This document shows, piece by piece, positions 19,484 to 35,147 of a stretch of 44,530 nt of DNA. Source of the DNA: Anaerolineales bacterium (GTDB taxonomy: Bacteria; Chloroflexota; Anaerolineae; E26-bin7). How positions within the stretch are numbered: position 1 is the first letter of the stretch; each line of letters opens with the position of its first letter. A program made the position numbers and the translations under genes. Under the pieces are notes generated by a model. It was not told the origin of the DNA and ran no database searches. It saw only the letters and a program-made list of their open reading frames with translations. The stretch is from contig SOHZ01000615.1 of the NCBI GenBank assembly GCA_004377365.1, positions 1-44,530 of the forward strand, given 5' to 3'.

Positions 19484-20929
19484 TCAGGCACTCAGCAGGC
19501 CCTTTTCCCCCAGAAACCTCACAGGGTCCACAAAATGCTTGTCCAGGCCCAGGGTCTTGGCATCCAGCCCGAAGGCAACTCCCATCAGTTGAGTGAAGTA
19601 GATGATAGGCAGACCAAAGCTCTCTTCGTATTCTTTCTCGATCTGTCGCTGGCGGGAGTCGAGATTAACTTGACACAAAGGGCAGGCCACGATGACGGCT
19701 TCCGCTCCCACTGCTTTAGCGTCGTGCAGCACCTTGCGGCTCATTCCTAGAGCGATGGGGAGCTGGGTGATACCCAGCGAAACGCCACAGCAGTCGGTTT
19801 TGTAGGACCAGTCGAGGGATTCGGCGCCCAGTGTCTCCACCAGGCGGTCCATGTTGGTCGGGTACTCGTAATCTTTGACTTTGGTGAGCTGGGGCGGCCG
19901 GGTGAGGGCACAGCCATAGTAGCAGACCACTTTCAAGTTCTCCAAAGGTCTGGTCACTTTCTCGGCCACCGTTTCATATCCCACCCGCTCAGTGATGGTC
20001 GTCAGCAAGAGGTCCATTTTCAGGCCCCTGGAGGGCAGGTAGTCCGTCTGAGCCCGGACTTCTCTGGCCAGTTCCTCGTCCTCGGCTACATTCTGAGTAG
20101 CAGCTCGGAAGCGTTGAAAGCAGGAGGGGCAGGGGAAAGTCATGTAGGAATGACCTTCCCGTTCCATCTGGGCCAGAGTGCGCATGGGCAGCACTGTAGC
20201 ATAGACGTGATCTGTGGAGTGGGCCGGAGTGCTACCGCAGCAGCACCAGTCCTTTGGTTCCTGAAGAGTCCATTCCAGCGCCTTCGCCACCGCCAGGATG
20301 GACATGTGGTATTCTTTGGACGTGCCGTGCAAGCTGCAGCCTGGGTAGTAGGCGATGGTCCTGGGGTCCGTCACTGCTGGAGAGACGGGGCCTGCTCTTG
20401 GTTTGCCCCGGGTGCCCCGGCTGGGGATAGGATTCAGCTTGCCATCACGGAACATTTTGAGGGCCATGCCCACATCCTCGCCGAAGAGTTGCTTAAAGTC
20501 TAAATCTCCCCGCAGGAATTGGCGTATGTAAAGTTCGCCCATTAGCTGCAACTCGTACATCCTTCCGAAGTAGCGGATTCCCCGCAACATGGCCTCGTAG
20601 AAATCGGGTACATCCGGCACCTTGGGCTTGATCCCCTCCCGCCGGGCCATGATTCGGAAGACGTCCATGATGGCCGTAATGTTGATGCCCTGGGGGCAGC
20701 GGGTGGCGCAGGTCTCGCAGATGGCGCAAAGCCAGATGGTTTTGGAGTTGAGGATCAGGTCCTTCTGGCCGAACTGGGCTGCGCGCAAGAGTTGATTGGG
20801 CGTCAGGTCGAAATGCTCAGCCACAGGGCAGCCGGCCGTACACTTTTTGCATTGATAGCACAGGTAGACGTTTTCGCCACATTCTTCCTGGATGTAGTGC
20901 GCCAGGTCAGTTTTGAGTTCTATGGACAT
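19484..20929 (-). CDS. Heterodisulfide-reductase-like HdrC-HdrB fusion
   Basis: A 481-residue iron-sulfur protein joining HdrC and HdrB. The HdrC part has two [4Fe-4S] motifs: Cys24/27/30/34 (CYQCKKCTAGCP) and Cys68/71/74/78 (CAICETCATRCP). The HdrB part has two CCG domains: Cys198 (YYPGCS), Cys229-231 (WCCCG) with Cys267/270 (CPSC); and Cys340 (YYGC), Cys380/381 (DCCG) with Cys416/419 (CPLC). These motifs bind the unusual non-cubane clusters in methanogen HdrB. It lies 16 bases downstream of the MetF-like gene. By analogy with Moorella MetFV-HdrABC-MvhD it carries electrons within a methylene-H4folate reductase complex, not to CoM-S-S-CoB. Confidence 0.88.
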   Translation of the reverse strand: MSIELKTDLAHYIQEECGENVYLCYQCKKCTAGCPVAEHFDLTPNQLLRAAQFGQKDLILNSKTIWLCAICETCATRCPQGINITAIMDVFRIMARREGIKPKVPDVPDFYEAMLRGIRYFGRMYELQLMGELYIRQFLRGDLDFKQLFGEDVGMALKMFRDGKLNPIPSRGTRGKPRAGPVSPAVTDPRTIAYYPGCSLHGTSKEYHMSILAVAKALEWTLQEPKDWCCCGSTPAHSTDHVYATVLPMRTLAQMEREGHSYMTFPCPSCFQRFRAATQNVAEDEELAREVRAQTDYLPSRGLKMDLLLTTITERVGYETVAEKVTRPLENLKVVCYYGCALTRPPQLTKVKDYEYPTNMDRLVETLGAESLDWSYKTDCCGVSLGITQLPIALGMSRKVLHDAKAVGAEAVIVACPLCQVNLDSRQRQIEKEYEESFGLPIIYFTQLMGVAFGLDAKTLGLDKHFVDPVRFLGEKGLLSA

Positions 20930-20945: not shown

Positions 20946-21920
20946 CTAATCCATCGTTGGTCGGGGCTGTAAGCCGGCCTGTTTGGTAATTTCGTCCACG
21001 GCCTCTTCCCATTCGATGGCCATGATGTGCACGCCGGCCACGCCCGGCATCTCCCTCACTTGTTGGATAACCTCGACGCATATCTGGACGCCTTCGCGTT
21101 CCGAGGCTTCGCGGCGGCGTGCTTTTTCTTCCTTGGGAATGCCCTCTACGGCGCTCTTCATGCGGTCTACGTATTCCTGGGGTACGTCCATACCCGGCAC
21201 GAAATTGGCCATATATCTGGCTGCACCAAAGGTCCTGATAGGGCTCACCCCGGCCAGGAGGTAGACCTCGTCCAGCAGCCCCATATCGCCGCAACGCTTG
21301 ACGAACTCGCGGAACTTGGGCACGTTGAAGACAATCTGAGTCTGGATAAAGTCGGCGCCAGCAGCGATCTTTTTGGCCAAGCGGTAGGGCCGAAAGTCGA
21401 AGGGATCGGCGAAGGGATTGGCTGCAGCCCCGATGAAAAAGCGAGGCTCGACGCCTTTGACCGGGTCACCGCACATGAATTTCTTCTCGTCGCGCAGGTC
21501 TTTGACCATGCGGAGGAGTTGCATGGAATCCAGGTCGAAAACGTTTTTGGCCGTGGGATGGTTGCCGAAAGTCTGGTGGTCGCCGGTCAGGCACAGCAGG
21601 TTTTTGATGCCCAGCGCCGACGCGCCCAGCAGGTCGCTCTGGATGGCGATACGGTTGCGGTCACGACAGGTCATCTGCATGTTGGGCTCAATCCCCATCT
21701 CCAGCAGCATGACAGCCACCGACATGCTAGACATACGTACCACCGCTGTCTGGTTGTCGGTGATATTGACCGAATCCACGTAGCCTTTGAGATAGTTCGC
21801 CTTTTCACGGATGACCTCCGGGTCGGCGCTCTGGGGTGGGCCTAACTCGCCTGTGGCAGCAAAGTGCCCAGCGGTGAGAATCTTTTCCAGATTGCTGCCT
21901 GCTTTCAGTGTGTTTGTCAT
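20946..21920 (-). CDS. metF: Methylenetetrahydrofolate reductase, MetF subunit
   Basis: Reduces 5,10-methylene-H4folate to methyl-H4folate with bound FAD, in the methyl branch of the Wood-Ljungdahl pathway. The 324-residue protein has the MetF TIM-barrel pattern: TGELGPPQSADPE, VDSVNITDNQ, QMTCRDRNRIAIQSDLLGA, NLLCLTGDHQ, FIGAAANPFADPF, AGADFIQTQIVFN and LLAGVSPIRT. ATG 21920 is chosen because GGGAGGA lies about 5 bases upstream; an adjacent ATG at 21923 is the alternative. It follows metV by 10 bases, and as in acetogens the two are expected to work together. Confidence 0.92.
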   Translation of the reverse strand: MTNTLKAGSNLEKILTAGHFAATGELGPPQSADPEVIREKANYLKGYVDSVNITDNQTAVVRMSSMSVAVMLLEMGIEPNMQMTCRDRNRIAIQSDLLGASALGIKNLLCLTGDHQTFGNHPTAKNVFDLDSMQLLRMVKDLRDEKKFMCGDPVKGVEPRFFIGAAANPFADPFDFRPYRLAKKIAAGADFIQTQIVFNVPKFREFVKRCGDMGLLDEVYLLAGVSPIRTFGAARYMANFVPGMDVPQEYVDRMKSAVEGIPKEEKARRREASEREGVQICVEVIQQVREMPGVAGVHIMAIEWEEAVDEITKQAGLQPRPTMD

Positions 21921-21930
21921 CATTCCTCCC

Positions 21931-22707
21931 TCACTTTGTCTCGAGCCGAAGGTCCTCGCGCACGATCTTGCGCGGGCCACCGTGGCGGCTGGAGGTCCAA
22001 TCCTTGACCGGCTGGATCTCGCTTGCAAGTATAAGGTCCAGCTTGCCCAGGGCCTCGAGACGCTCGTAGATGAGATGCCAGGCACATTCGATTTCCTCCA
22101 TGACCGGCACCTCTTTCCCTCTCTTGTTCACCGTCGTGACCGGTTTGCCACCCTCCATCTTGACCCGTTTCACCTCGCACAGGCCATTTTGCGAGCCGCC
22201 GCAGGGGCCGTTGAGCAGGCTCTTGGAGCAGCGGGCGACGGGGCAGATGCCGCCGGTCAGGGCCAGCACGCAGTTGCCGCAGGCCTGGCAGCGTTCCGCC
22301 CAAATGCCCTGCTCGGTGGGCTGACCCAGGAAGGTGGTATTGAGGCCAGGCAGGGTAATTTTCTCCGAGAACTGCTCGTTCATGGTCTGCACGCCGATGC
22401 CACAGGCCAGAGACAAGACGACATCGGCTTCTTTGATCTGCTCGGCCACCTCATCGTTGTACTCGTACTCGCACTGGCGCTGCACCGTGGCTTCGACGAT
22501 TTCTTTCCCTTCGGCTACGCTCAGGGCAGGGTTTTGGCCATCGAGCTTGGTGGCCATACGCAGCGAGGAGGCCAGGATGCCCACCTCCTTCTCCCCGCCA
22601 GCGAAACAGACGGTGACGCAGGTGCCGCAGCCGAGCACCAGAACTTTTTCATAGTCGGCAATCATTGCCTTGATCTCATCAAAGGGCTTTTGTTCGCCTA
22701 CAATCAT
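21931..22707 (-). CDS. metV: MetV-like iron-sulfur/zinc subunit of methylene-H4folate reductase
   Basis: A 258-residue partner of MetF (methylene-tetrahydrofolate reductase C-terminal domain family). An N-terminal cysteine set (GCGTCVTVC, Cys27/30/34) precedes a Rossmann-like middle. A second cysteine cluster (CQACGNC, GGICPVARCSKSLLNGPCGG) lies at about residues 138-170. Residues ~60-67 (PALSVAEG) are the translation of an in-frame REP-like palindrome in a loop. Start ATG 22707 has GGAGG 7 bases upstream. In Moorella thermoacetica MetV is required with MetF. It lies between mvhD and metF. Confidence 0.85.
   Translation of the reverse strand: MIVGEQKPFDEIKAMIADYEKVLVLGCGTCVTVCFAGGEKEVGILASSLRMATKLDGQNPALSVAEGKEIVEATVQRQCEYEYNDEVAEQIKEADVVLSLACGIGVQTMNEQFSEKITLPGLNTTFLGQPTEQGIWAERCQACGNCVLALTGGICPVARCSKSLLNGPCGGSQNGLCEVKRVKMEGGKPVTTVNKRGKEVPVMEEIECAWHLIYERLEALGKLDLILASEIQPVKDWTSSRHGGPRKIVREDLRLETK
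22507..22526 (-). repeat. REP-like palindrome inserted in frame within metV
   Basis: The minus strand reads CCCTGAGCGTAGCCGAAGGG, an imperfect 20-bp palindrome known as a REP-like repeat in diverse genomes. Inside genes it yields the peptide LSVAEG, exactly as seen here. The reading frame is kept. Confidence 0.8.
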
Positions 22708-22793
22708 GTTTAACCTCCATAATCGGGACGCTTGAAATAATGCTAAAAGTCGCCTTCTTCGGCGGTAATTTCCTATCTATAATAGCGGTTGCC

Positions 22794-23225
22794 CTATGCC
22801 ACCTCAGCAGAACTCCCATTTCCCAACGGATTCGGTCCCAGCGCCCGGATGCGCTCCGTCATCTCGGTGGCGATTTCGGCAAAGCGGACTCCTTCGGCTG
22901 ACGAGAGGAAGTACATCTCCAAGCGCTCGCCGCCCAGGCCGATCTCATCGAGCAGTCTCTTGACATAGTTCACCCGTCGCTCGGCGTTGACATTACCATC
23001 CAGGTAATGGCAGGTTCCCTTCAGTCAGCCGGCCACAAAAATGCCGTCAGCCCCCCGCTCGAAGGCTTTGAGCGCGTACAGGACATCGAACTTGCCGGTG
23101 CAGGGCAGCTTTACGATTTTGACGTTCGTTGGGTACGAGAGGCGCATCGAGCCTGTCAGGTCGGCGGCGGCGTAGGCGCAATAGTGACAGGCAAAGGCCA
23201 GGATTTGGGGTTCGAATTCGGTCAT
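22794..23225 (-). CDS. mvhD: MvhD/VhuD-type [2Fe-2S] subunit with predicted selenocysteine
   Basis: A 143-residue electron-transfer subunit linking HdrA to partner enzymes, read through an in-frame TGA at 23025-23027 (residue 67). Before it: MTEFEPQI, Cys13/16 (CHYC), Cys42 (KLPCTGK), GADGIFVAG. After it: LKGTCHYLDGNVNAERR, LLDEIGLGGERLEMYFLSS, FAEIATEMTERIRALGPNPL, stop TAG at 22794. The paralogue at 29095-29532 has Cys69 (VVACPLGNCHH) exactly where the TGA lies (VAG-U-LKGTCHY). A perfect 7-bp stem with loop TGGAT starts 15 nt after the TGA, fitting a bacterial SECIS. Selenocysteine forms of this family (VhuD) are known in methanogens. The ATG has AGGAG at good distance. A nonsense mutation is the alternative but explains less. 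Confidence 0.85.
22991..23009 (-). promoter_or_regulatory. Candidate bacterial SECIS stem-loop
   Basis: On the minus strand CATTACC (23009-23003), loop TGGAT, GGTAATG (22997-22991) form a perfect 7-bp stem. It begins 15 nt after the TGA, so the loop begins 22 nt after it. The second loop base is G, as the bacterial SECIS consensus requires a G in the first two loop positions. It lies within the coding region, as bacterial SECIS elements do. Confidence 0.75.
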
Positions 23226-23234
23226 CTTTGGCTC

Positions 23235-23606
23235 CTAGAGGTATCTCAATTGCGACTTGATCTCACTAGCCGTGACCTTGTTGAGCAAGTCAAGCAGCTT
23301 GGCGATCACAATTTCGTTGTCGCGGCGTCTCTTAGCGATAATGATGCCATAGTGTCCTCTTTCAGAATCAAGATACTGCTTATGCAACTCTTTGAAGTCA
23401 TCGCGGTTGTGAGTCACGACGGTTCGTCCTTGGCCAATGGCAAACTCCAGTTGCTCGTGATCCTCTTTCTCAAGCATCTCGGCTTCGCAGGCATGGAGAA
23501 CGTTGTAGCCTCGATTTCGCAGGTTCACCATAATCTTTCGCGAAACGTCCTCATCGAAGTATAGCTTGATATAGAGGGCAGTGAACTCGTGGTTGTCGCG
23601 GGTCAA
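23235..23606 (-). CDS. DUF5615 PIN-like toxin-type protein
   Basis: A 123-residue protein with the DUF5615 pattern: YIKLYFDEDVSRKI at the N-terminus, GYNVLHACEAEM, GRTVVTHNRDDF and YGIIIAKRR. The acidic residues in FDEDV and NRDDF correspond to PIN-like active-site positions, so an RNase toxin role is plausible. It starts at TTG 23606, overlapping the TGA of the upstream antitoxin-like gene by 4 bases (TTGA), with AGAGG upstream; no ATG or GTG is available before the domain. DUF5615 genes are typically paired with DUF433 genes, as here. It lies 9 bases before the selenoprotein mvhD. Confidence 0.8.
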   Translation of the reverse strand: MTRDNHEFTALYIKLYFDEDVSRKIMVNLRNRGYNVLHACEAEMLEKEDHEQLEFAIGQGRTVVTHNRDDFKELHKQYLDSERGHYGIIIAKRRRDNEIVIAKLLDLLNKVTASEIKSQLRYL

Positions 23607-24178
23607 TCTGCAACCTCTGTGACTTTGTTTCTCAGGATGTGGTACTCTATCTCGTCACGGTGGGTATCGTAGTAGCTCAAAGCATCGAAAATCTGACCTA
23701 GGCGCAAATGCGGTAGGTGTTCCAGGATTTCGTCTGGAGATGCGCCTAACTTCCACCACTCGACTATGGCTCGCACCGATGTGCGTGTGCCATAGATGAT
23801 CGGTTCGCCACCAACTACGCCCTCCACTTTGACGATGCAAGGATGCTCCGTACGCTCTACTTTCGATTTGTAGAAACGCTGATCTGCGGCATCCTCTGCC
23901 TCGAGGACGGTGTAGGGCTCCCTGCCCTCCCGAAGTCGCTGCAACTCCTTTTGGGGCAAAGTGAATTGAGCGTAGACAGGAGTGACCACCCTATCCGCCG
24001 CCCTCTGCGAAAAATCAATGACTGTGAATCCCACGATCTCGTCTGATTCCGGGTCAATTCTAACCAGAAAACCATTTTCTTGCTCTATACACAGGGCCGA
24101 ATCGGAATCTCCCAGAGTTACGTAGAGAATATCTTCTTCCCTATCGTAGTGATAATTTAAAGCTTTGGCTTTATCCAT
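23603..24178 (-). CDS. DUF2283-DUF433 fused antitoxin-like protein
   Basis: A 191-residue fusion of two families that normally occur separately. Residues ~8-60 (YHYDREEDILYVTLGDSDSA, then GFLVRIDPESDEIVGFTVID) match DUF2283. Residues ~117-180 (VVGGEPIIYGTRTSVRAIVE, WWKLGASPDEILEHLPHL, LGQIFDALSYYDTHRDEI) match DUF433. Both families are usually small antitoxin-like partners. It overlaps the downstream DUF5615 gene by 4 bases and the upstream gene by 22 bases, so the three are translationally coupled. AGGGGGTGA precedes the ATG. It may neutralise both neighbours (inference). Confidence 0.75.
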   Translation of the reverse strand: MDKAKALNYHYDREEDILYVTLGDSDSALCIEQENGFLVRIDPESDEIVGFTVIDFSQRAADRVVTPVYAQFTLPQKELQRLREGREPYTVLEAEDAADQRFYKSKVERTEHPCIVKVEGVVGGEPIIYGTRTSVRAIVEWWKLGASPDEILEHLPHLRLGQIFDALSYYDTHRDEIEYHILRNKVTEVAD

Positions 24179-24504
24179 ACTACTTCACCCCCTGCAATCG
24201 GCTTCAGCGCCAAATAAGCTGTTCTGACAAATCCTTCCGAAGCCGTATAGCGTATGACGACAACCCTATAGAGATTGGAATATTTCCCCTCTGTAACCCC
24301 AAGGCGATAGAACAAATTGGTATCGGCCCGCTTATCACTTTGCAGAATATCATCCAGGGCATTTATGGCCACTTTAATGGCTTCCAGATGTTTAGCCATA
24401 GCCGGGTGACCTACGAGAATATGGCTTTCCCATCGCTCTCTGGTTAGGGTGGTTGGAGTGCCATCTTTGTCCGGGATGGTGAACAAGATTTCTTTTGCTC
24501 TCAA
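24157..24504 (-). CDS. Putative toxin-like nuclease, possibly of the PBECR/RelE-like group
   Basis: A 115-residue protein: MRAKEILFTIPDKDGTPTTL, then RERWESHILVGHPAMAKHLE, a segment with periodic Asp/Ile and FYRLG, and a C-terminal beta pattern (LYRVVVIRYTASEGFVRTAY, GGEVVWIKP). The layout resembles small phage-Barnase-EndoU-RelE-like nucleases found beside DUF2283 genes, but the assignment is tentative. TTG start at 24504 overlaps the stop of the HdrA gene by 4 bases (TTGA), with GGAGGG upstream. The candidate antitoxin is the DUF2283 half of the next gene. Confidence 0.5.
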   Translation of the reverse strand: MRAKEILFTIPDKDGTPTTLTRERWESHILVGHPAMAKHLEAIKVAINALDDILQSDKRADTNLFYRLGVTEGKYSNLYRVVVIRYTASEGFVRTAYLALKPIAGGEVVWIKPKL

Positions 24505-27500
24505 GCCATCACGCCCTCCGCGAACAGCGCTTCTTCTTTGGCAATCATCTGCTCATCGCGATAGTGTTGCAGTTGGATGGCTTTGGCCGGACATTCGGCG
24601 GCACAGGAGCCGCAACCCTGGCAAGCAGCCGCCGCAATCTCGGCCGCACCCAGGATGCCTCCTGCTCCTACTTTACTGGGATTCATCTGGGGCACGTCGT
24701 AGGAACAGATGCGCACGCAAGTCAGGCAGCCGGTGCATTTCTCCTCATCCACCACGGCCACCACTCCACCCACCTGGAGCACATCTTTGGAGAGAATGGT
24801 CGTGGCCCGGGCAGCAGCAGCGTTGGCCTGAGCGATAGTCTCGTCAATGAACTTGGGGTAGTGGGCTGCGCCGCAGAGGAAAATGCCCTCTGCCGGAAAG
24901 TCCACCGGGCGCAGCTTGACGTGGGCTTCCAAGAAGAACCCCTCCAGTGTGCAGGAAAACTTGAGGAGTTCGGCCAACTCCTGACTGCCCTCGCTCGGCA
25001 CCATCGCTTCAGATAAGACCAGCAGGTCCGGCTTCAACGCGATAAAAGCTTGCAGGACTGGATCGTTGACGGTCACCTGCAACTGGCCGTTGTTTCTCTG
25101 CACCTTGGGCTTGTTCTCATCGTCGTAACGCAAGAAAATCACGCCCTCATCACGCGCCTGGGTGTAGAGAGCCTCCTTGAAGCCATAGGTGCGCATATCT
25201 TTGTAAAGGATGTAGACACTGGTTCCTGGGTTACGCTTCTTGATGGCCATCGCGTTTTTGATGGCCACTGTGCAGCAGACGCGGCTACAATAAAAGTCGG
25301 GGGCGTCGTCACCACCGTCGTCCCAGGGACCGACGCATTGTATCATCACCACGGAGCGGCAGGCGTCAAGGGTCATGGCAGCCCGCTCCCCTTCTGCTCC
25401 CTCTGACTGGTCTGCCTTCGCCAGAAGCTGCTCCAAATCGTCCTGGGTGACGACTTTGTCCTGGCCCAGCAGATACGCGCTGCCCCGGTACTCCCGCCCA
25501 CCGGTAGCTACGATGGTCACCCCATGCTCGATAAGGCGCCGGGTGGGGTCGTCCACGCTGGCTACAGTGGTCTTGAAATTGCCCACAAAGCCGCCGGATT
25601 TGGCCACCTCGTAGCCGGTCAGCACCTCGATGCGTAGGTTGGCCTGGACCTTGCCTATCAGTTCTCTCAAGTAGGCTTGCGGGTCGCCACCGTTGGCGGT
25701 GTAGTAAATGTGGCGCAATCGCCCGCCCAGCTCCCGCTTCCGCTCCACCAAATAGACTCCGAAGCCCTGCTCGGCCAGGTTCAGGGCCGCCGCCATACCA
25801 GCCACGCCACCGCCTATCACCAACGCCTCGTGGCTCAGGCTCTGGGGCTCGGTGTAGAGGGGCATCAGCAGACGCGAGCGTCCCACCGCCATGCGCGTCA
25901 GGTCTTTGGACTTGACCGTGGCCGCCTCAGGCTCACCGGAGTGTACCCAGGAGCATTGGTCACGGATATTGGCCATCTCGAACAGGTAAGGATTCAGCCC
26001 GGCCTCGCGGATGGTGTCGCGGAAGAGGGGCTCGTGGGTACGTGGCGTACACGATGAGACGATGACTCGGTTCAACTTGTGTTCGGCGATGCGTTCCTGG
26101 ATGAGCTTCAGCGAGTCGGCTGAGCAGGTGTAAATGGTGTTCTCGGCATGGACCACGTCGGGTAGGGTCCTGGCGTACTCGACGACTTGATTCACGTCTA
26201 CCACGCCGGCGATATTGGAGCCGCAACTGCAAACAAAGACCCCGATGCGTGGCTCCTCGTCTTCGAGCCAGGCCACCTCCGGCGGGTAGACCTTCTCCGT
26301 GACCAGCGTGCCGCGCGCATGGCCGATGGTGGTCAGCGCTGCTGCAGCCGCGCCCGAGGCCTCGATGACGCTCTCGGGGATGTCCTTGGGCTCGGCGAAG
26401 GTGCCGCACACGTAGACGCCCGGCCGAGTGGTTTCCACCGGGTGGAAGGGGTTCCGACGGCAAAAGCCCCGCTCGTCCCGTTCGATGCCTACCGTCTGGG
26501 CCAGCTTCCGGGCGTCGGGTGGGGGCTCCAGGCCCACGCTGAGCACCATCAGGTCGAACTTCTCCTCCCGTAAGGTTGAGCCCTGCTGGTACTCTTCAGG
26601 CTGGTAACGGACGATGATGTCCCTGGTTTTTGGGTCCTCTTTGAGCGACGAAATGCGGCAACGGATGTACTGGATGCCTAACTCCTTGCCCCGCTCGAAG
26701 TAGGCATCGAAGCCCTTGCTGAAGGCCCGCATGTCCATCTGGAAGATGTGGCACTGGACGCCTGGCATGTGCTCCAGGGCCAGCATGGCCTCCTTGGTGG
26801 CGTACATGCAGCACACGGAAGAGCAATAATCGTGCTCCTGATCACGGGAGCCGACGCATTGCAGGAAGGCGATACGCTTGGGCTCCTTCTGGTCCGACGG
26901 CCGGAGCACGTGGCCGTCGGTGGGCCCTGAGGCGCACGCGAGGCGCTCGAGCTGCAGGCTGGTCACCACGTTGGGGTAGCGCTCGAAGCCGTACTCCTCG
27001 GCCAGGCGGGCGTCGTAGGGCTTGTAGCCAGGGGCCAGGATGACCGCTCCGACCTTCAACTCCTCGAGGCGGTCAACGTCGTCGTAGTTGATGGCTCCTC
27101 GCTGGCAAGCGATGACGCACTCGCCGCACTCGGAGCACACCCCGCAGTTGAGGCAGCGGGCGGCCTCGGCCAGGGCCATTCTCTCGGTGTAGCCCATGTC
27201 CACTTCCAGGAAGCGTTCCACCCGCTCCTCCAGGGGCAGCAGAGGGCGGGGCACACGAGGCGTAGGGACGACCTCGCCGCGCTGCACCTTCTCCTGTGCT
27301 TCTTCCCTGGTCCACTCTACGACCGGTGGCTTTGGCTTGGGTGGTTGCTTCAACGGTTCGCCACGCAGGTAACGGTCAATGGAGGTGGCTGCCTGGTGGC
27401 CCATGGCGATGGCGTTGATGATAAGGCCTGCGCCGGGTACTCGACCGGGGCCGGCGAAGATGCCTGGCACGTGGGTGGCCAACGTTTCTGCGTCACCCAG

Positions 27501-29003
27501 GTAGGTATCTGGCGTGCAATCCATGTACCATCGGTCCGACGACTGGCCCAGGGCGCGGATGACGGTATCTACCTCCAAGATGAACTCCGTGCCAGGCACG
27601 GGCTTTGGCTCCTCCCGGCCGCGGGTCTTGGTCTCGGCGCACTCCAGGCTAGCCACGCGGCCGTTATCGCCCAGGATGCACAAGGGCATGGCCCACTGGA
27701 TGAGTCGCACCCCCTCGTTCTCTGCCTCAGCCAGTTCCCAGCCGTAGGCTGGTATCTCGCCCCGGCCACGACGGTAGATGAGGGACACCTCCTTGGCTCC
27801 CAGGCGCAGGGCAGTGGTGGCTGCATCCACAGCCGTGATGCCCCCGCCGACGACAGCCACCCTCTCACCTACCCCTTCCATCTTGCCCAGGCTAACATCG
27901 CGCAGCAGGGCAATGGCCGAGACCACGCCTTTCAGGTCTTCGCCCTCGATGTTCAGGCGGGGCTCTCCGTAGGTGCCAACAGCAAGGTAGACGGCCTGGT
28001 AACCCATGTCGAACAGCTCCATCGGGTCACGAATGGGGCTGTTGAGCTTGAGTTCCACGCCCAGGGCCAAGATGTCGGCGATGTCGCGGCGCAACACGTC
28101 TTTAGACAGCCGATACTCAGGGATGCCTACCCGCATCATGCCGCCCGGTTCGGGTAGGGCCTCGAAGACCGTCACCCCGTAGCCCATCTTGACCAGGTCC
28201 TGGGCGGCAGTCAACCCCGCTGGGCCAGCCCCGACGATGGCCACCCACTCGTCACGGGTGCGGGGCAGCTTCTCGGGAGGCGGTAGGTAGCCCAGGTAAA
28301 CGCGGTCGGTCACGAAGCGCTTGAGGGCCTGGATGGCCACTGGCTCGTCAATGTAGCGGCGGTTGCAACGCCCCTCGCAGGGGTGGTGGCAGGTGCGCCC
28401 GCAGACAGTGGCGAAGGGGATGCGCTCCCTGATCAGACGCAGGGCGTCGGCGTAGCGCCGCTGTTGGATAAGGGCGATATAACCCTGAGCGCTAACGCCG
28501 GCTGGGCAGGCGTTGGTGCAAGGGGCTCGCCCTTTCCTCTCAACGATGAAGGCGTTGGGCACTGCCTGAGCGTAAGGGCGATAGATGGCCTTGCGGGTCT
28601 GCAAGCCCTCGTTGAACTCGTCGGGTACTTCCACCGGACAGACGGCGGTGCACTCGTTACAACTGGTGCACTCGTTGATGTCCACATAGCGGGCCTTGCG
28701 CAGCACAGTGGCCGTGAAATCGCTGGCCTGGCCCTCAAGTCTGGTCAGCTCGGCGTTGGTGATGATCTCGATGTTACGATGGCGGCCGGCCTCCACCAGC
28801 TTGGGGGAGAGGATGCACATGGCACAGTCGTTGGTGGGGAAGGTCTTGTCCAACTGGGCCATCTTGCCCCCAATGGCCGGACTCTTCTCTACCAGGTAGA
28901 CCTTGATACCCGATTCGGCCAGGTCCAAAGCGGCCTGCACGCCAGCGATACCGCCGCCCACGACCAAAGCTGCACCGATCTTCTCTGTGTCTTCTGATAC
29001 CAT
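24501..29003 (-). CDS. Giant HdrA with an embedded GltD-like NAD(P)H-binding module
   Basis: A 1500-residue flavin/iron-sulfur protein. Residues ~1-150: HdrA FAD domain (VVGGGIAGVQAALDLAESG, PTNDCAMC) with CTSCNECTAVCP. Residues ~156-550: GltD-like unit with CTNACPAGV, CGRTCHHPCEGRCNRR, FAD motif GAGPAGLTAA and NAD(P)H motif VVGGGITAVDAA. Residues ~616-640: ferredoxin CGVCSECGECVIAC. Then the HdrA core (CVGSRDQEHDYCSSVCCMYA; FVCSCGSNIAG ~922; SSCTPRTHEPLF). Residues ~1058 on: second FAD domain (VIGGGVAGMAAALNLAEQG). C-terminus: CTGCLTCVRIC and CQGCGSCAAECP. It lies between mvhD copies. It probably brings in NAD(P)H electrons and could bifurcate through its flavins (inference). HdrA family is certain; partners are inferred. 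Confidence 0.9.
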   Translation of the reverse strand: MVSEDTEKIGAALVVGGGIAGVQAALDLAESGIKVYLVEKSPAIGGKMAQLDKTFPTNDCAMCILSPKLVEAGRHRNIEIITNAELTRLEGQASDFTATVLRKARYVDINECTSCNECTAVCPVEVPDEFNEGLQTRKAIYRPYAQAVPNAFIVERKGRAPCTNACPAGVSAQGYIALIQQRRYADALRLIRERIPFATVCGRTCHHPCEGRCNRRYIDEPVAIQALKRFVTDRVYLGYLPPPEKLPRTRDEWVAIVGAGPAGLTAAQDLVKMGYGVTVFEALPEPGGMMRVGIPEYRLSKDVLRRDIADILALGVELKLNSPIRDPMELFDMGYQAVYLAVGTYGEPRLNIEGEDLKGVVSAIALLRDVSLGKMEGVGERVAVVGGGITAVDAATTALRLGAKEVSLIYRRGRGEIPAYGWELAEAENEGVRLIQWAMPLCILGDNGRVASLECAETKTRGREEPKPVPGTEFILEVDTVIRALGQSSDRWYMDCTPDTYLGDAETLATHVPGIFAGPGRVPGAGLIINAIAMGHQAATSIDRYLRGEPLKQPPKPKPPVVEWTREEAQEKVQRGEVVPTPRVPRPLLPLEERVERFLEVDMGYTERMALAEAARCLNCGVCSECGECVIACQRGAINYDDVDRLEELKVGAVILAPGYKPYDARLAEEYGFERYPNVVTSLQLERLACASGPTDGHVLRPSDQKEPKRIAFLQCVGSRDQEHDYCSSVCCMYATKEAMLALEHMPGVQCHIFQMDMRAFSKGFDAYFERGKELGIQYIRCRISSLKEDPKTRDIIVRYQPEEYQQGSTLREEKFDLMVLSVGLEPPPDARKLAQTVGIERDERGFCRRNPFHPVETTRPGVYVCGTFAEPKDIPESVIEASGAAAAALTTIGHARGTLVTEKVYPPEVAWLEDEEPRIGVFVCSCGSNIAGVVDVNQVVEYARTLPDVVHAENTIYTCSADSLKLIQERIAEHKLNRVIVSSCTPRTHEPLFRDTIREAGLNPYLFEMANIRDQCSWVHSGEPEAATVKSKDLTRMAVGRSRLLMPLYTEPQSLSHEALVIGGGVAGMAAALNLAEQGFGVYLVERKRELGGRLRHIYYTANGGDPQAYLRELIGKVQANLRIEVLTGYEVAKSGGFVGNFKTTVASVDDPTRRLIEHGVTIVATGGREYRGSAYLLGQDKVVTQDDLEQLLAKADQSEGAEGERAAMTLDACRSVVMIQCVGPWDDGGDDAPDFYCSRVCCTVAIKNAMAIKKRNPGTSVYILYKDMRTYGFKEALYTQARDEGVIFLRYDDENKPKVQRNNGQLQVTVNDPVLQAFIALKPDLLVLSEAMVPSEGSQELAELLKFSCTLEGFFLEAHVKLRPVDFPAEGIFLCGAAHYPKFIDETIAQANAAAARATTILSKDVLQVGGVVAVVDEEKCTGCLTCVRICSYDVPQMNPSKVGAGGILGAAEIAAAACQGCGSCAAECPAKAIQLQHYRDEQMIAKEEALFAEGVMA

Positions 29004-29094: not shown

Positions 29095-29532
29095 CTATCC
29101 GTGAGGATGCTGAGTGGGCTGTCTCAACGGGTTGGGACCCAACTTTTTGACTTTTTCCGTCATCTCTGTGGCCGCTTCAGCGAAGGCGTGGCCCTGCCCA
29201 CCGGACATGTAATAGATACCCAGCCGCCCACTACCCAGTCCGATCTCGTCGAGAAGCTTTTTGGTGAAAGCCACTCGCTTGGTAGCCCGCACGTTCCCTC
29301 CCACGTGGTGGCAGTTGCCAAGGGGGCAGGCCACCACACAAACGCCGTCAGCTCCTTGCTCAAAAGCCTCCAGGATATATTCAACGTCCACTTTGCCCGT
29401 GCAAGGCAATTTGACAATTTTGGTTCCGGCCGGGTAGGTGAGCCGGAGAGCCCCGGCTGTGTCGGCAGCCATATAGGCACAATAGATGCAAGTGAAGATA
29501 GTAATCTCAGGATCGAAACCATTATCAGACAT
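29095..29532 (-). CDS. mvhD: MvhD-type [2Fe-2S] subunit, cysteine form
   Basis: A 145-residue electron-transfer subunit paralogous to the selenoprotein form at 22794-23225. Cysteines: 15/18 (CIYC), 44 (LPCTGK), 65 (GVCVVA), 69 and 74 (ACPLGNCHH). Cys69 takes the place of the selenocysteine. The C-terminus FAEAATEMTEKVKKLGPNPL is close to that of the paralogue. ATG 29532 has AAGG 9 bases upstream. It is followed by the giant HdrA gene 91 bases later, as in mvhD-hdrA pairs, and lies 14 bases downstream of an unknown gene. Confidence 0.88.
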   Translation of the reverse strand: MSDNGFDPEITIFTCIYCAYMAADTAGALRLTYPAGTKIVKLPCTGKVDVEYILEAFEQGADGVCVVACPLGNCHHVGGNVRATKRVAFTKKLLDEIGLGSGRLGIYYMSGGQGHAFAEAATEMTEKVKKLGPNPLRQPTQHPHG

Positions 29533-29546
29533 ATGCCATAACCTTA

Positions 29547-30947
29547 TCACAGCATTCCTAACTCGAAGGGTGGTGCCAGAGATTCTGCAAACAGAGTATC
29601 TAACTCCTCCCATCCTCGCTCAATGGCCAGCGCGTTTCGCCTGGCTTTGCCAATGATCACATCCGTCACAGAGGCGAAGTGGAGTTTGAGATTGGCTGCC
29701 AGATACCCGAAGAAGGCCAACCATTGCGGGTAGTTAATGGCGAGGGGATTCCCCTGATAGATGAGGACCTTACCAGCATTACCTGCTGTAGCAACGGCAT
29801 GCCCCCAGAAGGCGAGCTTGCGATAGCGGGGATGCCGCCCCAACTTGTCCTCTCCCAACATATCTTGTTCTACCTGGCAGTCTGCTTTGTATTCTTCGTC
29901 CAGTGCACGACGGATGACAAAGTAGGCTCTGAGCAAGGCCTCAACAGCTGCAAAGCTTGTGGACATGGTCAGGAAATGACGACAATCGTAGCCTTCCAGA
30001 TACATCCAGCGCGCAAGATCTGCAATCGTCCTCTTTTTGGGACCGAAGGCACCGAGTTGCATCAATTGTGCAATTGAGAAACCAGGCGGTAGCAACCCCA
30101 TCTTGGTGTTTGCATCAGACAATAGGTGCCCCAGTTGTCTGATGATGGCCAACAATGGGTTATAGACAGGGGCATCCAGACGGCTGGTGATGATGACCTC
30201 ACCGTGTTTTGAAATGGCGGTCTGTCCTCCGCGTATAATATCAATGGTTCCAACCACTAATCCTACCAGAGGGTCGTGTCCGGGAGTCAGGATGCGGTGT
30301 GTCCTACCTCCCATGCCGGAAACTCGATCAGAGAGAACCTTGTCGTAAGAAACCTTGAAGCGTTGGGCAAGCGGGTTGTCGTGAGGAATGGACAAAGAGT
30401 GCAGCCATTTAGTAAGCGGGCTCCCCTCTTGGCCGAACTCGCCCATGTAGGTGATGTCCTTGGGAATCCTGACGAGCAGGAAATCAATCAGGACGCCGAT
30501 CAATCCTGCGACGCCTGCCAGACAATGGTCATAGGGGTCGAGGCGGATATTATAGCTGAGATCGAGGTCAAAGCGCTGTTCGATGCGTTGTCGCGTCTGC
30601 TCATCCAGCATGGAATCGAGATCCACACTGTCGGGGTCTTGCCCGGCTACGACCAAGGTGCGGCGCGACTCTGCGATGACTTGTTCCCAATTCGTTAGCG
30701 GGGCCTTCTCCGCTGGCTCAGGCTTCGGTACAGCGTGTAGGTCGGGGCGCGGCCTGGGCAATGTCACTCCCAGCTTATCCGCGACGGCTTGCACTTCTGA
30801 GTTCAGATCATCAAGAGCAGCGTCCCCTTGTGTACTCTCTTCCTTGAGATGCTCAATCTCGTCCCCGGCGGCTTTTTGCCGGTGCTCAGTAGCCTTTAGG
30901 ACTTGCGCTATCTCCTTGGATTTGTCTTTTCCTCTTCCATCATCCAT
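29547..30947 (-). CDS. Unknown protein with N-terminal coiled coil
   Basis: A 466-residue protein that I do not recognise. Residues ~10-60 are charged and helical (coiled coil). A Pro-rich linker follows (LPRPRPDLHAVPKPEPAEK). The remaining ~370 residues form a domain with hydrophobic helices, such as CLAGVAGLIGVLIDFLLVRI, and the motif GGRTHRILTPGHDPLVGLVV, whose His/Asp residues could be a metal or catalytic site (speculation). Further helices are WGHAVATAGNAGKVLIYQG and YPQWLAFFGYLAANLKLHF. It starts 3 bases after the stop of the upstream gene, so the two form a pair. Both interrupt the Hdr operon and have lower GC than their neighbours. No signal peptide is seen. Confidence 0.6.
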   Translation of the reverse strand: MDDGRGKDKSKEIAQVLKATEHRQKAAGDEIEHLKEESTQGDAALDDLNSEVQAVADKLGVTLPRPRPDLHAVPKPEPAEKAPLTNWEQVIAESRRTLVVAGQDPDSVDLDSMLDEQTRQRIEQRFDLDLSYNIRLDPYDHCLAGVAGLIGVLIDFLLVRIPKDITYMGEFGQEGSPLTKWLHSLSIPHDNPLAQRFKVSYDKVLSDRVSGMGGRTHRILTPGHDPLVGLVVGTIDIIRGGQTAISKHGEVIITSRLDAPVYNPLLAIIRQLGHLLSDANTKMGLLPPGFSIAQLMQLGAFGPKKRTIADLARWMYLEGYDCRHFLTMSTSFAAVEALLRAYFVIRRALDEEYKADCQVEQDMLGEDKLGRHPRYRKLAFWGHAVATAGNAGKVLIYQGNPLAINYPQWLAFFGYLAANLKLHFASVTDVIIGKARRNALAIERGWEELDTLFAESLAPPFELGML

Positions 30948-30950
30948 TGC

Positions 30951-31913
30951 TTATGCTCTTGCTAGTGCTGTCTGTTCTTTCTCCATCCACTCGATGCTTT
31001 GCTTGACGAACTTTATCATCTCTTTGAGTTCCTTGATGCGGTGGCTCCTTGCCTCGTTCAACTTTTGCTCTTCAGCGAGGCTCTCTTCAAGCTCCTTTTG
31101 TCGGTTCCTGAGTTCTATGATAACGTTCTGAGCCTTGAGCACATCCTGATCTTGTCGCAGAAGGACCTCCTTGAAGGTGACCTGTAGCTTCCAGACTTCC
31201 TGGGCCATGGTATGCCGGCCGAGGTTGTATAGCAACAAGCCACCTCCTCCCACGGTTGCACCGGCAGCAGCTCCGACACCTGTCACTAACCACGTACCAC
31301 CGGCCATGCCCGCACCGCCTGCAGCAATGGAGCCACCACCAAGTATCGCCAGGCCATGAAAAACAGCCGCCGCACCTGAAAGACCAGCTCCAGCGCCCAA
31401 CGCCCCTCCGATGACAGGAGCAAGTATCCAACCACCGGCAGCTAATACGACCGTGCCTACTGTACCGATGACCAATATCTTGCCCCAGGCATGCTTGGTA
31501 TGGGCTGTCCGGGCTTCTTTCACAGATTTCTCAGTGCTGACAATGTCTTCTGAAGAGAGCCCGAGATATGGCACAACGGACTCCAGAGCCTTCCTCTTGT
31601 CCTGCGCTTTGAACTTGAGTTCGTACGGAGCAAACGGGTTGGCCATGACCAGTTCGATCAGGACAAGACGTGCCTTATGCGATGGGTAATCTTTGGGTTT
31701 AGTACCCAGGAACTCCTCTGCTGAGTTACCAATAATATCAACTGTCTTGAAGGTATCCCGGAAGAGTTGCTTCTTTCTCTGAAGGACTGCTTCTTTCTTT
31801 GTGCGCCGTGTCGGGGCACTCTCCAAACTTGTTAACTCAGAAATGACGCCAATCTGAGCAGCAGAAAGAACGCGCACGTCCTTCTCTGTCATGTTAAGCG
31901 CCTCAAGTCCCAT
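30951..31913 (-). CDS. Glycine-zipper membrane protein with C-terminal coiled coil, unknown role
   Basis: A 320-residue protein in three parts: a charged helical N-terminus (1-140); a hydrophobic Gly/Ala-rich region (~146-229) with repeats such as GGALGAGAGLSGAA, LGGGSIAAGGAGMAGG and VGAAAGATVGGGG, typical of glycine-zipper membrane insertion; and a heptad-rich coiled coil (~258-315, RQKELEESLAEEQKLNEA). The architecture resembles membrane-acting effector proteins, but no family name is certain. GAAGGA precedes the ATG. It lies 22 bases downstream of an HdrA gene and is paired with the 466-residue gene downstream. Confidence 0.6.
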   Translation of the reverse strand: MGLEALNMTEKDVRVLSAAQIGVISELTSLESAPTRRTKKEAVLQRKKQLFRDTFKTVDIIGNSAEEFLGTKPKDYPSHKARLVLIELVMANPFAPYELKFKAQDKRKALESVVPYLGLSSEDIVSTEKSVKEARTAHTKHAWGKILVIGTVGTVVLAAGGWILAPVIGGALGAGAGLSGAAAVFHGLAILGGGSIAAGGAGMAGGTWLVTGVGAAAGATVGGGGLLLYNLGRHTMAQEVWKLQVTFKEVLLRQDQDVLKAQNVIIELRNRQKELEESLAEEQKLNEARSHRIKELKEMIKFVKQSIEWMEKEQTALARA

Positions 31914-31935: not shown

Positions 31936-34900
31936 TCAAGTTGCCAGCCACTGGCCCAATGCTGCCTGATCTCTGATCATCACCTGGTCATCGTGATAGT
32001 GACGCAGTTGGATGGCATTGGCTGGGCACTCGCTGGTGCAGGTGCCGCAGCCGGTGCACTTGGCCGGCTCGATGTAGGCCGCTCCCACAATATCTCCCAC
32101 TCCAATAGCTCCTTGCTGAATGGCAGGGATTTGGGAGGGACAGGTCCGCACGCAGGTCAGGCAGCCTACGCATTTGCTCTGGTCCACCTCGGCGATGACA
32201 GCGCCTAGCTCCAGGATGTCCTTGCCGAGAATGGTCATGGCCCGGCCGGCCGTGGCCAGGGCGTGGGCGATGGTCTCCTCCATGAACTTGGGATAGTGGG
32301 CCAGGCCGCAGAGGAAAATCCCCTCCTCAACAAAGTCCATGGGCCTCAGCTTGAGGTGCGCTTCCATGAAAAAGCCTTCACGGGAGAGGGGCAGGTTCAT
32401 GATACGAGCCAGCTCGCGGTTGGTCTCGCCCGGGGCGGTGGCCATGCTCAAGGCCAGGAGGTTGGGGTGGAACACCAGTTTATCTCCCATGATGAGGTCT
32501 TCCACCGTTACTCGCAAACTCCCGTAGACGACGCGCACATCGGGCTTGCTCTCGTCGGTGTATCGCAGAAAGATGACCCCCCGCTGGCGGGCTTCGGTGT
32601 AGTATTGCTCGCGGAAGCCATAGGTGATGAGGTCTTTGTAGAGGACGTAGACCCGACAGTCGGGGTTCAGTTTCTTGATAGCGATGGCGTTCTTCATGGT
32701 GTTGGTGCAACAGGTACGGCTACAATAATCGGCTTCTTCACCATAGGGGCGCACGCACCCGATCATCACCACTTCGTCGAGTTTGGCGATCTCTTCAGGC
32801 TCCTCGACGATGCGCTTCTCCATCTCCAATTGGGTGAGCACACGCGGGTCCAGGCCATGCAGGTACTGCGTGCCCTGATACTCCTGGGCGCCAGTGGCTA
32901 CGATGGCCACGCCGTGCTCAAATTCCCGCTCCTGGGGCCCTCGGCCATTCCCATTGCTGCACAGGACCGATTTAAAGTTGCCCACGTGCCCGCTGAAATT
33001 CACCAATTGGGTGTTCTTGTAGATGTCTATGCGCTCGTGACACTCCACCTGCTTGACCAGAGAGCGGAGGAGGCGCTGCGGGTCAGGTCCCTCGGCGGTG
33101 TAGTGTATGTTGCGCAGATTCCCGCCCAACTGATCCCCTTTCTCTATCAAGCAGACGTCGAACCCCTCATCGGCGATGGTCAGGGCGGCCGTCATCCCAG
33201 CCAGGCCCCCACCGATGACCAGCGCCTTGTGATTGAAAATCCAGCTAGTCTTGTGCACTGGCTGCAGGAGCCGCGCCCGGGCTGCCCCTATCCTCACCAG
33301 TTCCTCGGCTTTGCGCGTGGCGCCCCTGGGGTCGTCGTAGTGTACCCAGGCGCAATGGTCCCGGATGCTGACGAATTCCAGCAGGTAGGGGTTGAGACTC
33401 AACTGGCGCAGGATGGCTTGAAAGAGGGCCTCGTGGGTGCGGGGAGTGCAGGCTGCCACCACCACCCGGTTGAGATTGTGCTCCTTGATGGCAGCCTTGA
33501 TCTCTTCCAGCCCTTCGGGCAGGCAGGCCCAGATCACGTTCTGGGCATGGACTACGTCCGGCAGACCCTTAGCATACTCCACCACGGCTGGCACATCCAC
33601 CACCTCGGTTATGTTGGTCCCACAGTGGCAGGCAAAGACGCCCACCCGTGGCGGTTCGTCACTGACGTCTCGCTCCAGCGGGTAGTTCAGTTCTGTCAGC
33701 CGGTTGCCCCGTATCCCCGTCAGATGTCGCACCTGCCGTTCCCCGGTCAAACGGATGGCCGTTGACATGGTGCCCTGAGCTCCTGAGAGGAGCCTCATAG
33801 CCCGTGCCGCAGCCCCACTGGCGTCAATCACTGTCTCGGCGATCTCTTTGGGCTGGGAAAAGGCACCCGCCACAAAAACGCCCGGCCGGCTGGTATCCAA
33901 GGGCTCAAATTTGTCCGTCAGGCAAAAGCCGTACTCGTTGAGCTCGATACCCAAATCCTGGGCCAGGGTCACGGCTTTGGGAGGTGGCTCACTGCCCACA
34001 GCCAGCACAACCATGTTGAAGCGATCTTCGCGCAGTTCGCCCTTTTCATCTTGATAATGGATGAAAAGGTCATGCGTAAGGGGCTCTTCCCTGATGCCTG
34101 AGATGCGGCAACGGGTGTACTGCACCCCCCACGTATCCCTGGCTTGCTCGTAGTAGGCGTTGTACTCCTTACTGAAGGCTCGCTCGTCCATCATAAAGAC
34201 CTGGCAATGTACCCCAGGGACGCGCTGTTTGGCCAGCACCGCCTCTTTGGTGGCGTACATGCAGCAGATGGACGAACAGTAGCTATGCTCCTGATCACGC
34301 GAGCCGACGCATTGAATCCAGGCGATGCGCTGGGGCAGAGCCCCATCAGAGGGACGCTGCATGATGCCCTCAGTGGGTCCCGAGCGGCTGGCCAGGCGCT
34401 CGTACTCCAGCCCGGTGACCACGTTGGGATAGCGTCCGTAGCCCAATTCCTCGGCCGGCCGGGGGTCGTACAGCTTGTATCCCACACTCAAGATGATGGC
34501 TCCTACCTGGATCTCCTCGTACCATGGCTCCTCGTCCAGGTTGATAGCTTTGGTAGGGCAGACCTCCTCACACTTGCGGCAGTCCAGGCAGTACTCGCCC
34601 TTCTCCACCAGATAGGCATTGGGGATAGCCCGTGGCGCTACTTTGTAGACTGCCTTGTGGGTGGCAAATCCCATCTGGAATTTGTCGGGCAAGTCCACCG
34701 GGCACATCTTGCTGCACTCGTCACAGGAGACACAGGTGCGAACGTTCACGTAACGGGGGTTATGGACGACGGTTGCCTTAAAGTCGCCCGGAATCCCTTC
34801 TACCCCCACGATTTCGGTAAGCGTCATCAACTCGATGTTGGGATGGGGACTAAAGTCCAGCAGCGCCGGACTGATGGAAGGCCGCGTGCAACCGTAGCCA

Positions 34901-35100
34901 TGATCAGGCGTGCCAGAGCACAGCACGCAGTCGTGGGTAGGGAACATGAAACCCAACTGGGCAACGACTCCACCAATAGCAGGCAAAATCTCAACCAGAT
35001 ATACTTTGTAGCCAGAGTCAGCCAAATCAACGGCGGCCCTCATGCCGCCGACGCCGCCTCCGACTACCATCACTGCTCCGATTTTCTGTCTTTGAACCAC
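31936..35100 (-). CDS. HdrA-type protein with two FAD domains and C-terminal ferredoxin clusters
   Basis: A 1054-residue flavin/iron-sulfur protein, first gene of the Hdr operon. N-terminal FAD site (VVGGGVGGMRAAVDLADSG) and PTHDCVLC with an extra segment GYGCTRPSISPALL. Ferredoxin motifs CVSCDECSKMCP and CLDCRKCEEVCP. HdrA core CVGSRDQEHSYCSSICCMYA, FACHCGTNITE and AACTPRTHEALF. Second FAD domain (VIGGGLAGMTAALTIADEG). C-terminal CVGCLTCVRTCP and CTGCGTCTSECP. GTG at 35100 is used because GAGGAG lies 7 bases upstream; a GTG at 35115 is the alternative. It has no GltD insert, unlike the HdrA at 24501-29003. It probably supplies the core of the MetFV-Hdr complex or a second one. Confidence 0.9.
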   Translation of the reverse strand: MVQRQKIGAVMVVGGGVGGMRAAVDLADSGYKVYLVEILPAIGGVVAQLGFMFPTHDCVLCSGTPDHGYGCTRPSISPALLDFSPHPNIELMTLTEIVGVEGIPGDFKATVVHNPRYVNVRTCVSCDECSKMCPVDLPDKFQMGFATHKAVYKVAPRAIPNAYLVEKGEYCLDCRKCEEVCPTKAINLDEEPWYEEIQVGAIILSVGYKLYDPRPAEELGYGRYPNVVTGLEYERLASRSGPTEGIMQRPSDGALPQRIAWIQCVGSRDQEHSYCSSICCMYATKEAVLAKQRVPGVHCQVFMMDERAFSKEYNAYYEQARDTWGVQYTRCRISGIREEPLTHDLFIHYQDEKGELREDRFNMVVLAVGSEPPPKAVTLAQDLGIELNEYGFCLTDKFEPLDTSRPGVFVAGAFSQPKEIAETVIDASGAAARAMRLLSGAQGTMSTAIRLTGERQVRHLTGIRGNRLTELNYPLERDVSDEPPRVGVFACHCGTNITEVVDVPAVVEYAKGLPDVVHAQNVIWACLPEGLEEIKAAIKEHNLNRVVVAACTPRTHEALFQAILRQLSLNPYLLEFVSIRDHCAWVHYDDPRGATRKAEELVRIGAARARLLQPVHKTSWIFNHKALVIGGGLAGMTAALTIADEGFDVCLIEKGDQLGGNLRNIHYTAEGPDPQRLLRSLVKQVECHERIDIYKNTQLVNFSGHVGNFKSVLCSNGNGRGPQEREFEHGVAIVATGAQEYQGTQYLHGLDPRVLTQLEMEKRIVEEPEEIAKLDEVVMIGCVRPYGEEADYCSRTCCTNTMKNAIAIKKLNPDCRVYVLYKDLITYGFREQYYTEARQRGVIFLRYTDESKPDVRVVYGSLRVTVEDLIMGDKLVFHPNLLALSMATAPGETNRELARIMNLPLSREGFFMEAHLKLRPMDFVEEGIFLCGLAHYPKFMEETIAHALATAGRAMTILGKDILELGAVIAEVDQSKCVGCLTCVRTCPSQIPAIQQGAIGVGDIVGAAYIEPAKCTGCGTCTSECPANAIQLRHYHDDQVMIRDQAALGQWLAT

Positions 35101-35147
35101 AGTGTTGCTCCTCACGCCAAAATTCTAGTCCGGTCTCCAAGTCAAAG

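Follow-up and report, generated by a model that had tools for sequence, protein, structure and literature searches.

Electrons enter Hdr complexes through MvhD. In the solved complexes, MvhD or its homologue, which carries a [2Fe-2S] cluster, forms the link between the donor module and the bifurcating flavin of HdrA (PMC12350162). Bacterial selenocysteine (Sec) forms of FrhD/MvhD have been known since 2006 from Syntrophobacter, Syntrophus, Moorella and others, with Sec and Cys converted repeatedly (PMC1794560); Desulfobacterium autotrophicum has four mvhD genes of the Sec form (PMC2702500).

A second group of described systems comprises the Hdr-type methylene-THF reductases (HdrABC-MvhD-MetVF) of Moorella thermoacetica and Sporomusa ovata. 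The Sporomusa MvhD has HdrA, HdrB and MetF as interaction partners, and the Moorella HdrA has about 1500 residues with a GltD insert (PMC9430772). For marine Chloroflexi, an HdrABC-MvhD-MetVF cluster in which hdrBC is fused was reported in 2017; the remarks on Sec in that article concern formate dehydrogenases and not MvhD (PMC5736913). The Moorella Sec FrhD (PMC1794560) may or may not be the metVF-linked MvhD of this bacterium.

In this work we analyzed a stretch of 44,530 nucleotides (the window) from a draft genome of an uncultured Anaerolineales bacterium (Chloroflexota), in which an mvhD gene is interrupted by an in-frame TGA at codon 67. Its likeness to the Sec MvhD/VhuD/FrhD family consists of a full-length FlpD domain, UGA at a conserved Cys, Cys homologues, a SECIS hairpin and SelA/SelB/SelD, while its gene set and the approximately 1500-residue HdrA with the GltD insert are those of the Moorella-type reductases. 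It differs from both: a single Sec is predicted here, at residue 67 only, whereas a recent review presents the family with a CxxU motif and two Sec residues (PMC13188914), and Sec in MvhD is not mentioned for the Moorella, Sporomusa and Chloroflexi clusters in the accessible parts of PMC9430772 and PMC5736913.

The closest solved relative is VhuD of a methanogen Hdr complex (PDB 9sfi/9t1s; E 4e-47). In chain 9sfi_K, the residues corresponding to Cys16 and to Cys67 are both non-standard (X), which fits a VhuD carrying two Sec residues (PMC13188914), in contrast to the one Sec predicted here. Judging by its chain names, the complex is of the archaeal Hdr type. It is not a MetVF complex, since a search of the PDB gave no match for MetV and only distant enzymes for MetF. 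A literature search for a paper on 9sfi/9t1s found none.

The mvhD gene and its neighbors

The main features of the region are listed in Table 1. The mvhD ATG is preceded by a Shine-Dalgarno-like AGGAG, the frame ends with TAG, and the TGA at codon 67 is its sole interruption. The read-through product matches Pfam FlpD (PF02662) over its full length (160 bits), as does the Cys paralogue; with the NCBI VhuD model NF045873 it scores 183 bits against the 215 required. The two proteins are 60% identical over residues 4–134 in a gap-free alignment, which places TGA67 opposite Cys69. Thus, two claims of the earlier note, made from the sequence alone, were borne out: that the TGA splits an otherwise intact mvhD, and that both halves match the paralogue without a gap, with the TGA on its Cys69. 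Other read-through frames were sought in the window, and none was convincing.

Table 1. Location of the features discussed in the text (positions in the window)
Feature	Position	Strand	Remarks
hdrBC fusion	19484..20929	-	HdrC-type 4Fe-4S domain and two CCG domains
metF, methylene-H4folate reductase	20946..21923	-	Pfam MTHFR; start codon inferred, just past the metV stop
metV, methylene-H4folate reductase iron-sulfur subunit	21931..22707	-	Pfam DUF5981, MTHFR C-terminal
mvhD (FlpD family)	22794..23225	-	143 residues if the TGA encodes Sec67
SECIS hairpin	22991..23009	-	7-bp stem, loop TGGAT; folding, shuffles, comparative pairing
In-frame TGA, codon 67	23025..23027	-	predicted selenocysteine
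DUF5615 and DUF433 (DUF433/DUF2283) genes between hdrA and mvhD	23235..24178	-	domain matches
hdrA, Moorella-type	24501..29003	-	1500 residues; inserted GltD-type NAD(P)H/FAD domain
Cys paralogue of MvhD	29095..29532	-	FlpD match; 2/7 stem pairs at the homologous place

The clustered hdrA, hdrBC, mvhD, metV and metF constitute the gene set of the Moorella-type Hdr-linked methylene-THF reductase, and the order hdrA-mvhD-metV-metF is kept in most close loci of both phyla, with TGA and with Cys alike. Residues 154–639 of HdrA match GltD-type proteins, the remainder being HdrA; the same HdrA-GltD fusion is named HdrL in Desulfobacterium. The DUF5615 and DUF433 genes may be a toxin-antitoxin-like pair and are not thought to be part of the Hdr-MetVF system. 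Whole or partial copies of them were observed at the same place in four relatives (loci L018–L021).

It should be mentioned that the window contains a second HdrA of 1059 residues at 31936–35115 on the minus strand, which accompanies the Cys paralogue of MvhD. Two genes with no assigned function (29547–30947 and 30951–31913) lie between them.

Codon 67 in homologous genes

The distribution of the TGA was studied in homologous genes, taking one genome per species, which gave 80 loci. Codon 67 is TGA in 30 genes, including the one analyzed here, and TGC or TGT in 63, and the TGA variants are carried by Chloroflexota and Desulfobacterota. The U/C exchange that the earlier note had proposed to look for is therefore present in the alignment. 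The second genome of the genus has the same TGA, in a gene with 94% identity, and the TGA recurs within the class, for which 60 genomes were compared.

The only other stop codon within the conserved part of these genes is TGA at Cys16, found in 18 genes (in one of them together with TGA67); TAA and TAG are confined to the region beyond residue 134, near the natural C terminus. Random stops elsewhere in the gene in close relatives were looked for as a sign of decay, and none came to light. For seven relatives dN was 0.01–0.18 and dS from 0.4 to >1, with similar values on either side of the TGA. A decaying gene is thereby excluded, because dN is far below dS both upstream and downstream of this codon.

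These data bear directly on the possibility of a nonsense pseudogene or an assembly error, in which a chance TGA truncates the protein to 66 residues. Such a loss could be tolerated if the Cys paralogue 6 kb away made this copy dispensable, and the failure to find selC in the draft (see below) would agree with it. However, the identical TGA occurs in many independent assemblies, purifying selection persists downstream of it, the conserved part has no stops at other internal positions except TGA at Cys16, and the hairpin described below is conserved. The conservation of the TGA and the selection on both sides of it refute this explanation, to which we assign practically no probability.

The hairpin downstream of the TGA

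The hairpin CATTACC-TGGAT-GGTAATG begins 15 nt past the TGA and has G at the second loop position, in agreement with the earlier note; its apical loop lies 22 nt past the TGA. The 19-mer has a folding energy of -7.3 kcal/mol and beats 200 of 200 dinucleotide shuffles. A comparable hairpin (a suitably spaced 7-bp Watson-Crick stem with G at loop position 1 or 2) follows only 8 of the 1407 TGA trinucleotides of the window (0.6%). When 56–68 nt were folded, the excess stability was slight (z from -0.5 to -1.5), and the fold of the single sequence is therefore supportive only. A scan of positions 22700–23300 with Rfam gave chance matches only.

Comparison of the homologous genes revealed that: (i) all 30 TGA genes form six or seven of the seven stem pairs at the same distance; (ii) the 63 Cys genes form on average 3.5 pairs, which is what random synonymous recoding of their own proteins would give; and (iii) among genes sharing the peptide H-F/Y-L-x-G-N, 6–7 pairs are formed in the 29 with TGA versus 3–6 in the 18 with Cys. 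The difference between TGA and Cys genes has a Mann-Whitney p of 5e-15, a value that is indicative only, because the sequences are related. Thus, the hairpin is conserved with the TGA (at least six of seven pairs in each of the 30 genes) and not in the Cys genes as a group.

An alignment of 19 TGA genes shows six pairs formed throughout and the outermost C-G pair formed in only four genes. Pair 23-33 is A-U in 12 of these genes and U-A in seven, a double-sided exchange; the U-A state coincides with the Desulfobacterota sequences, and the exchange may therefore be a single event. The covariation of the stem was matched by none of 500 shuffles, and the pairing was lost when one partner was slid along the other. 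It is this comparative evidence, rather than the fold of a single sequence, that we regard as decisive for the predicted hairpin.

Probable decoding of the TGA and a second predicted selenocysteine position

The draft genome (5.87 Mb in 676 contigs, 88.8% complete, 7.1% contamination) contains selA (580 bits), selB (349 bits) and selD (374 bits), all exceeding the curated cut-offs. SelD is itself a predicted selenoprotein, with TGA in the catalytic motif AAG-U-AAK (contig C64, L016 2401–2403, minus strand). A GC-rich 7-bp hairpin was also noticed about 26 nt past the TGA of selD. The selB gene is not a contaminant, because it is 88–98% identical to selB of the other genome of the genus, where the gene is broken by Ns. 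In that second genome (G001) selA was found, and a clear selD was not. The co-occurrence of TGA-containing mvhD with selB among 60 relatives was considered as evidence and set aside as uninformative, selB being present in 51 of the 60.

Of the sel genes named in the earlier note, selA, selB and selD are thus present, and selC was not found in the fragmented draft. The gene for tRNA-Sec was sought in this draft (G000) with the Rfam model RF01852, an anticodon-loop/T-arm pattern, blastn with the selC of a relative and a model built from 11 relatives, and in G001 with the Rfam model and the relatives-built model, the best 150 first-look candidates per genome being scored in the model searches; neither draft yielded it. 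Eight RF01852 matches that were inspected are, or adjoin, ordinary tRNAs (Leu, Ser, Cys, Asp, Gly). Rfam search and ARAGORN detected tRNA-Sec or a close equivalent in 11 of 12 relatives, the exception being the genome of the same genus. The absence from both drafts of the genus is probably due to assembly gaps, and is the weak point of the Sec case.

Because of this absence one could suppose that UGA67 is read as another amino acid, for example by near-cognate Trp read-through or under a reassigned code. However, 14 of 31 long frames picked in the window, including the neighboring HdrBC, MetV and HdrA, end normally with TGA, and the code is therefore not globally reassigned. Moreover, the codon alternates with Cys only, a SECIS-like hairpin is present, and the genome encodes SelA, SelB and a TGA-containing SelD. 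Decoding other than by Sec thus appears highly improbable. On comparison of sequences, we consider it very probable that mvhD is an intact selenoprotein gene of an Hdr-linked methylene-THF reductase, with UGA67 decoded as Sec through the downstream hairpin.

As inferred from this comparison, SelB with Sec-tRNA(Sec) would decode UGA67, directed by the intra-coding hairpin 15 nt downstream. The product would be the delta subunit MvhD, passing electrons from its [2Fe-2S] cluster to HdrA as in the solved relatives, and its partners, predicted from the genes, would be HdrA with the NAD(P)H-binding insert, HdrBC, MetV and MetF. Sec67 would replace a conserved Cys that is probably a cluster ligand or its close neighbor, and its likely effect would be a tuned cluster potential or electron-transfer rate.

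It can also be hypothesized that UGA67 acts in addition as a selenium switch, so that at low selenium only 66 residues would be translated and the Cys paralogue would act instead, which is compatible with UGA67 being read as Sec. The proximity of the paralogue, with another hdrA beyond it, and the Vhu/Vhc precedent in Methanococcus voltae (cited in PMC2702500) fit such a switch. However, the paralogue belongs to a distinct clade and may therefore serve another complex, and we regard the switch as unlikely.

The TGA at codon 16 concerns the second Cys of the N-terminal CxxC motif (C-x-x-U), with Cys at position 67, and is mostly found in metV-linked genes (L026–L034, L036, L042, L055, L065, L066, L069 and L075; the second copy of L096 has both). 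Genes with TGA16 carry another hairpin, which is similarly spaced from their own TGA. Hence, metVF-linked MvhDs have Sec at residue 67 in some cases and at residue 16 in others. On a tree of 94 sequences the states Sec67, Sec16, both and none require 11 changes, as counted from a short alignment with many open forks. We give even chances to the proposal that Sec has moved between the two Cys positions within the metVF-linked MvhDs (Chloroflexota and the Desulfosarcina type have it at 67, Syntrophaceae and others at 16, and one divergent copy at both), a separate hairpin serving each position; one selenolate at the cluster site, and not at a particular residue, would then be selected.

The earlier note had considered Sec MvhD as established in methanogens and little described in a bacterial methylene-H4folate reductase setting. 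The first part is too narrow, since Sec MvhD has long been known in bacteria too (PMC1794560, PMC2702500), and the MetVF cluster is known as well (PMC5736913, PMC9430772); only the combination seems undescribed in the literature searched. A search for papers on selenoproteins or SECIS elements of Chloroflexota found none, most subscription journals being outside its coverage. What seems to be new is Sec MvhD in a metVF-linked Hdr cluster and the two alternative Sec positions.

Such genes are easily overlooked: standard annotation likely truncates mvhD here to a 66-residue fragment, and the cut-off of NF045873 is missed. The delta subunit would therefore seem to be missing from the Hdr-linked methylene-THF reductase of uncultured acetogen-like Chloroflexota. 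With two alternative Sec positions, the role of selenium in the MvhD subunit becomes testable. In such Chloroflexota, a core step of the Wood-Ljungdahl pathway could be affected by selenium supply.
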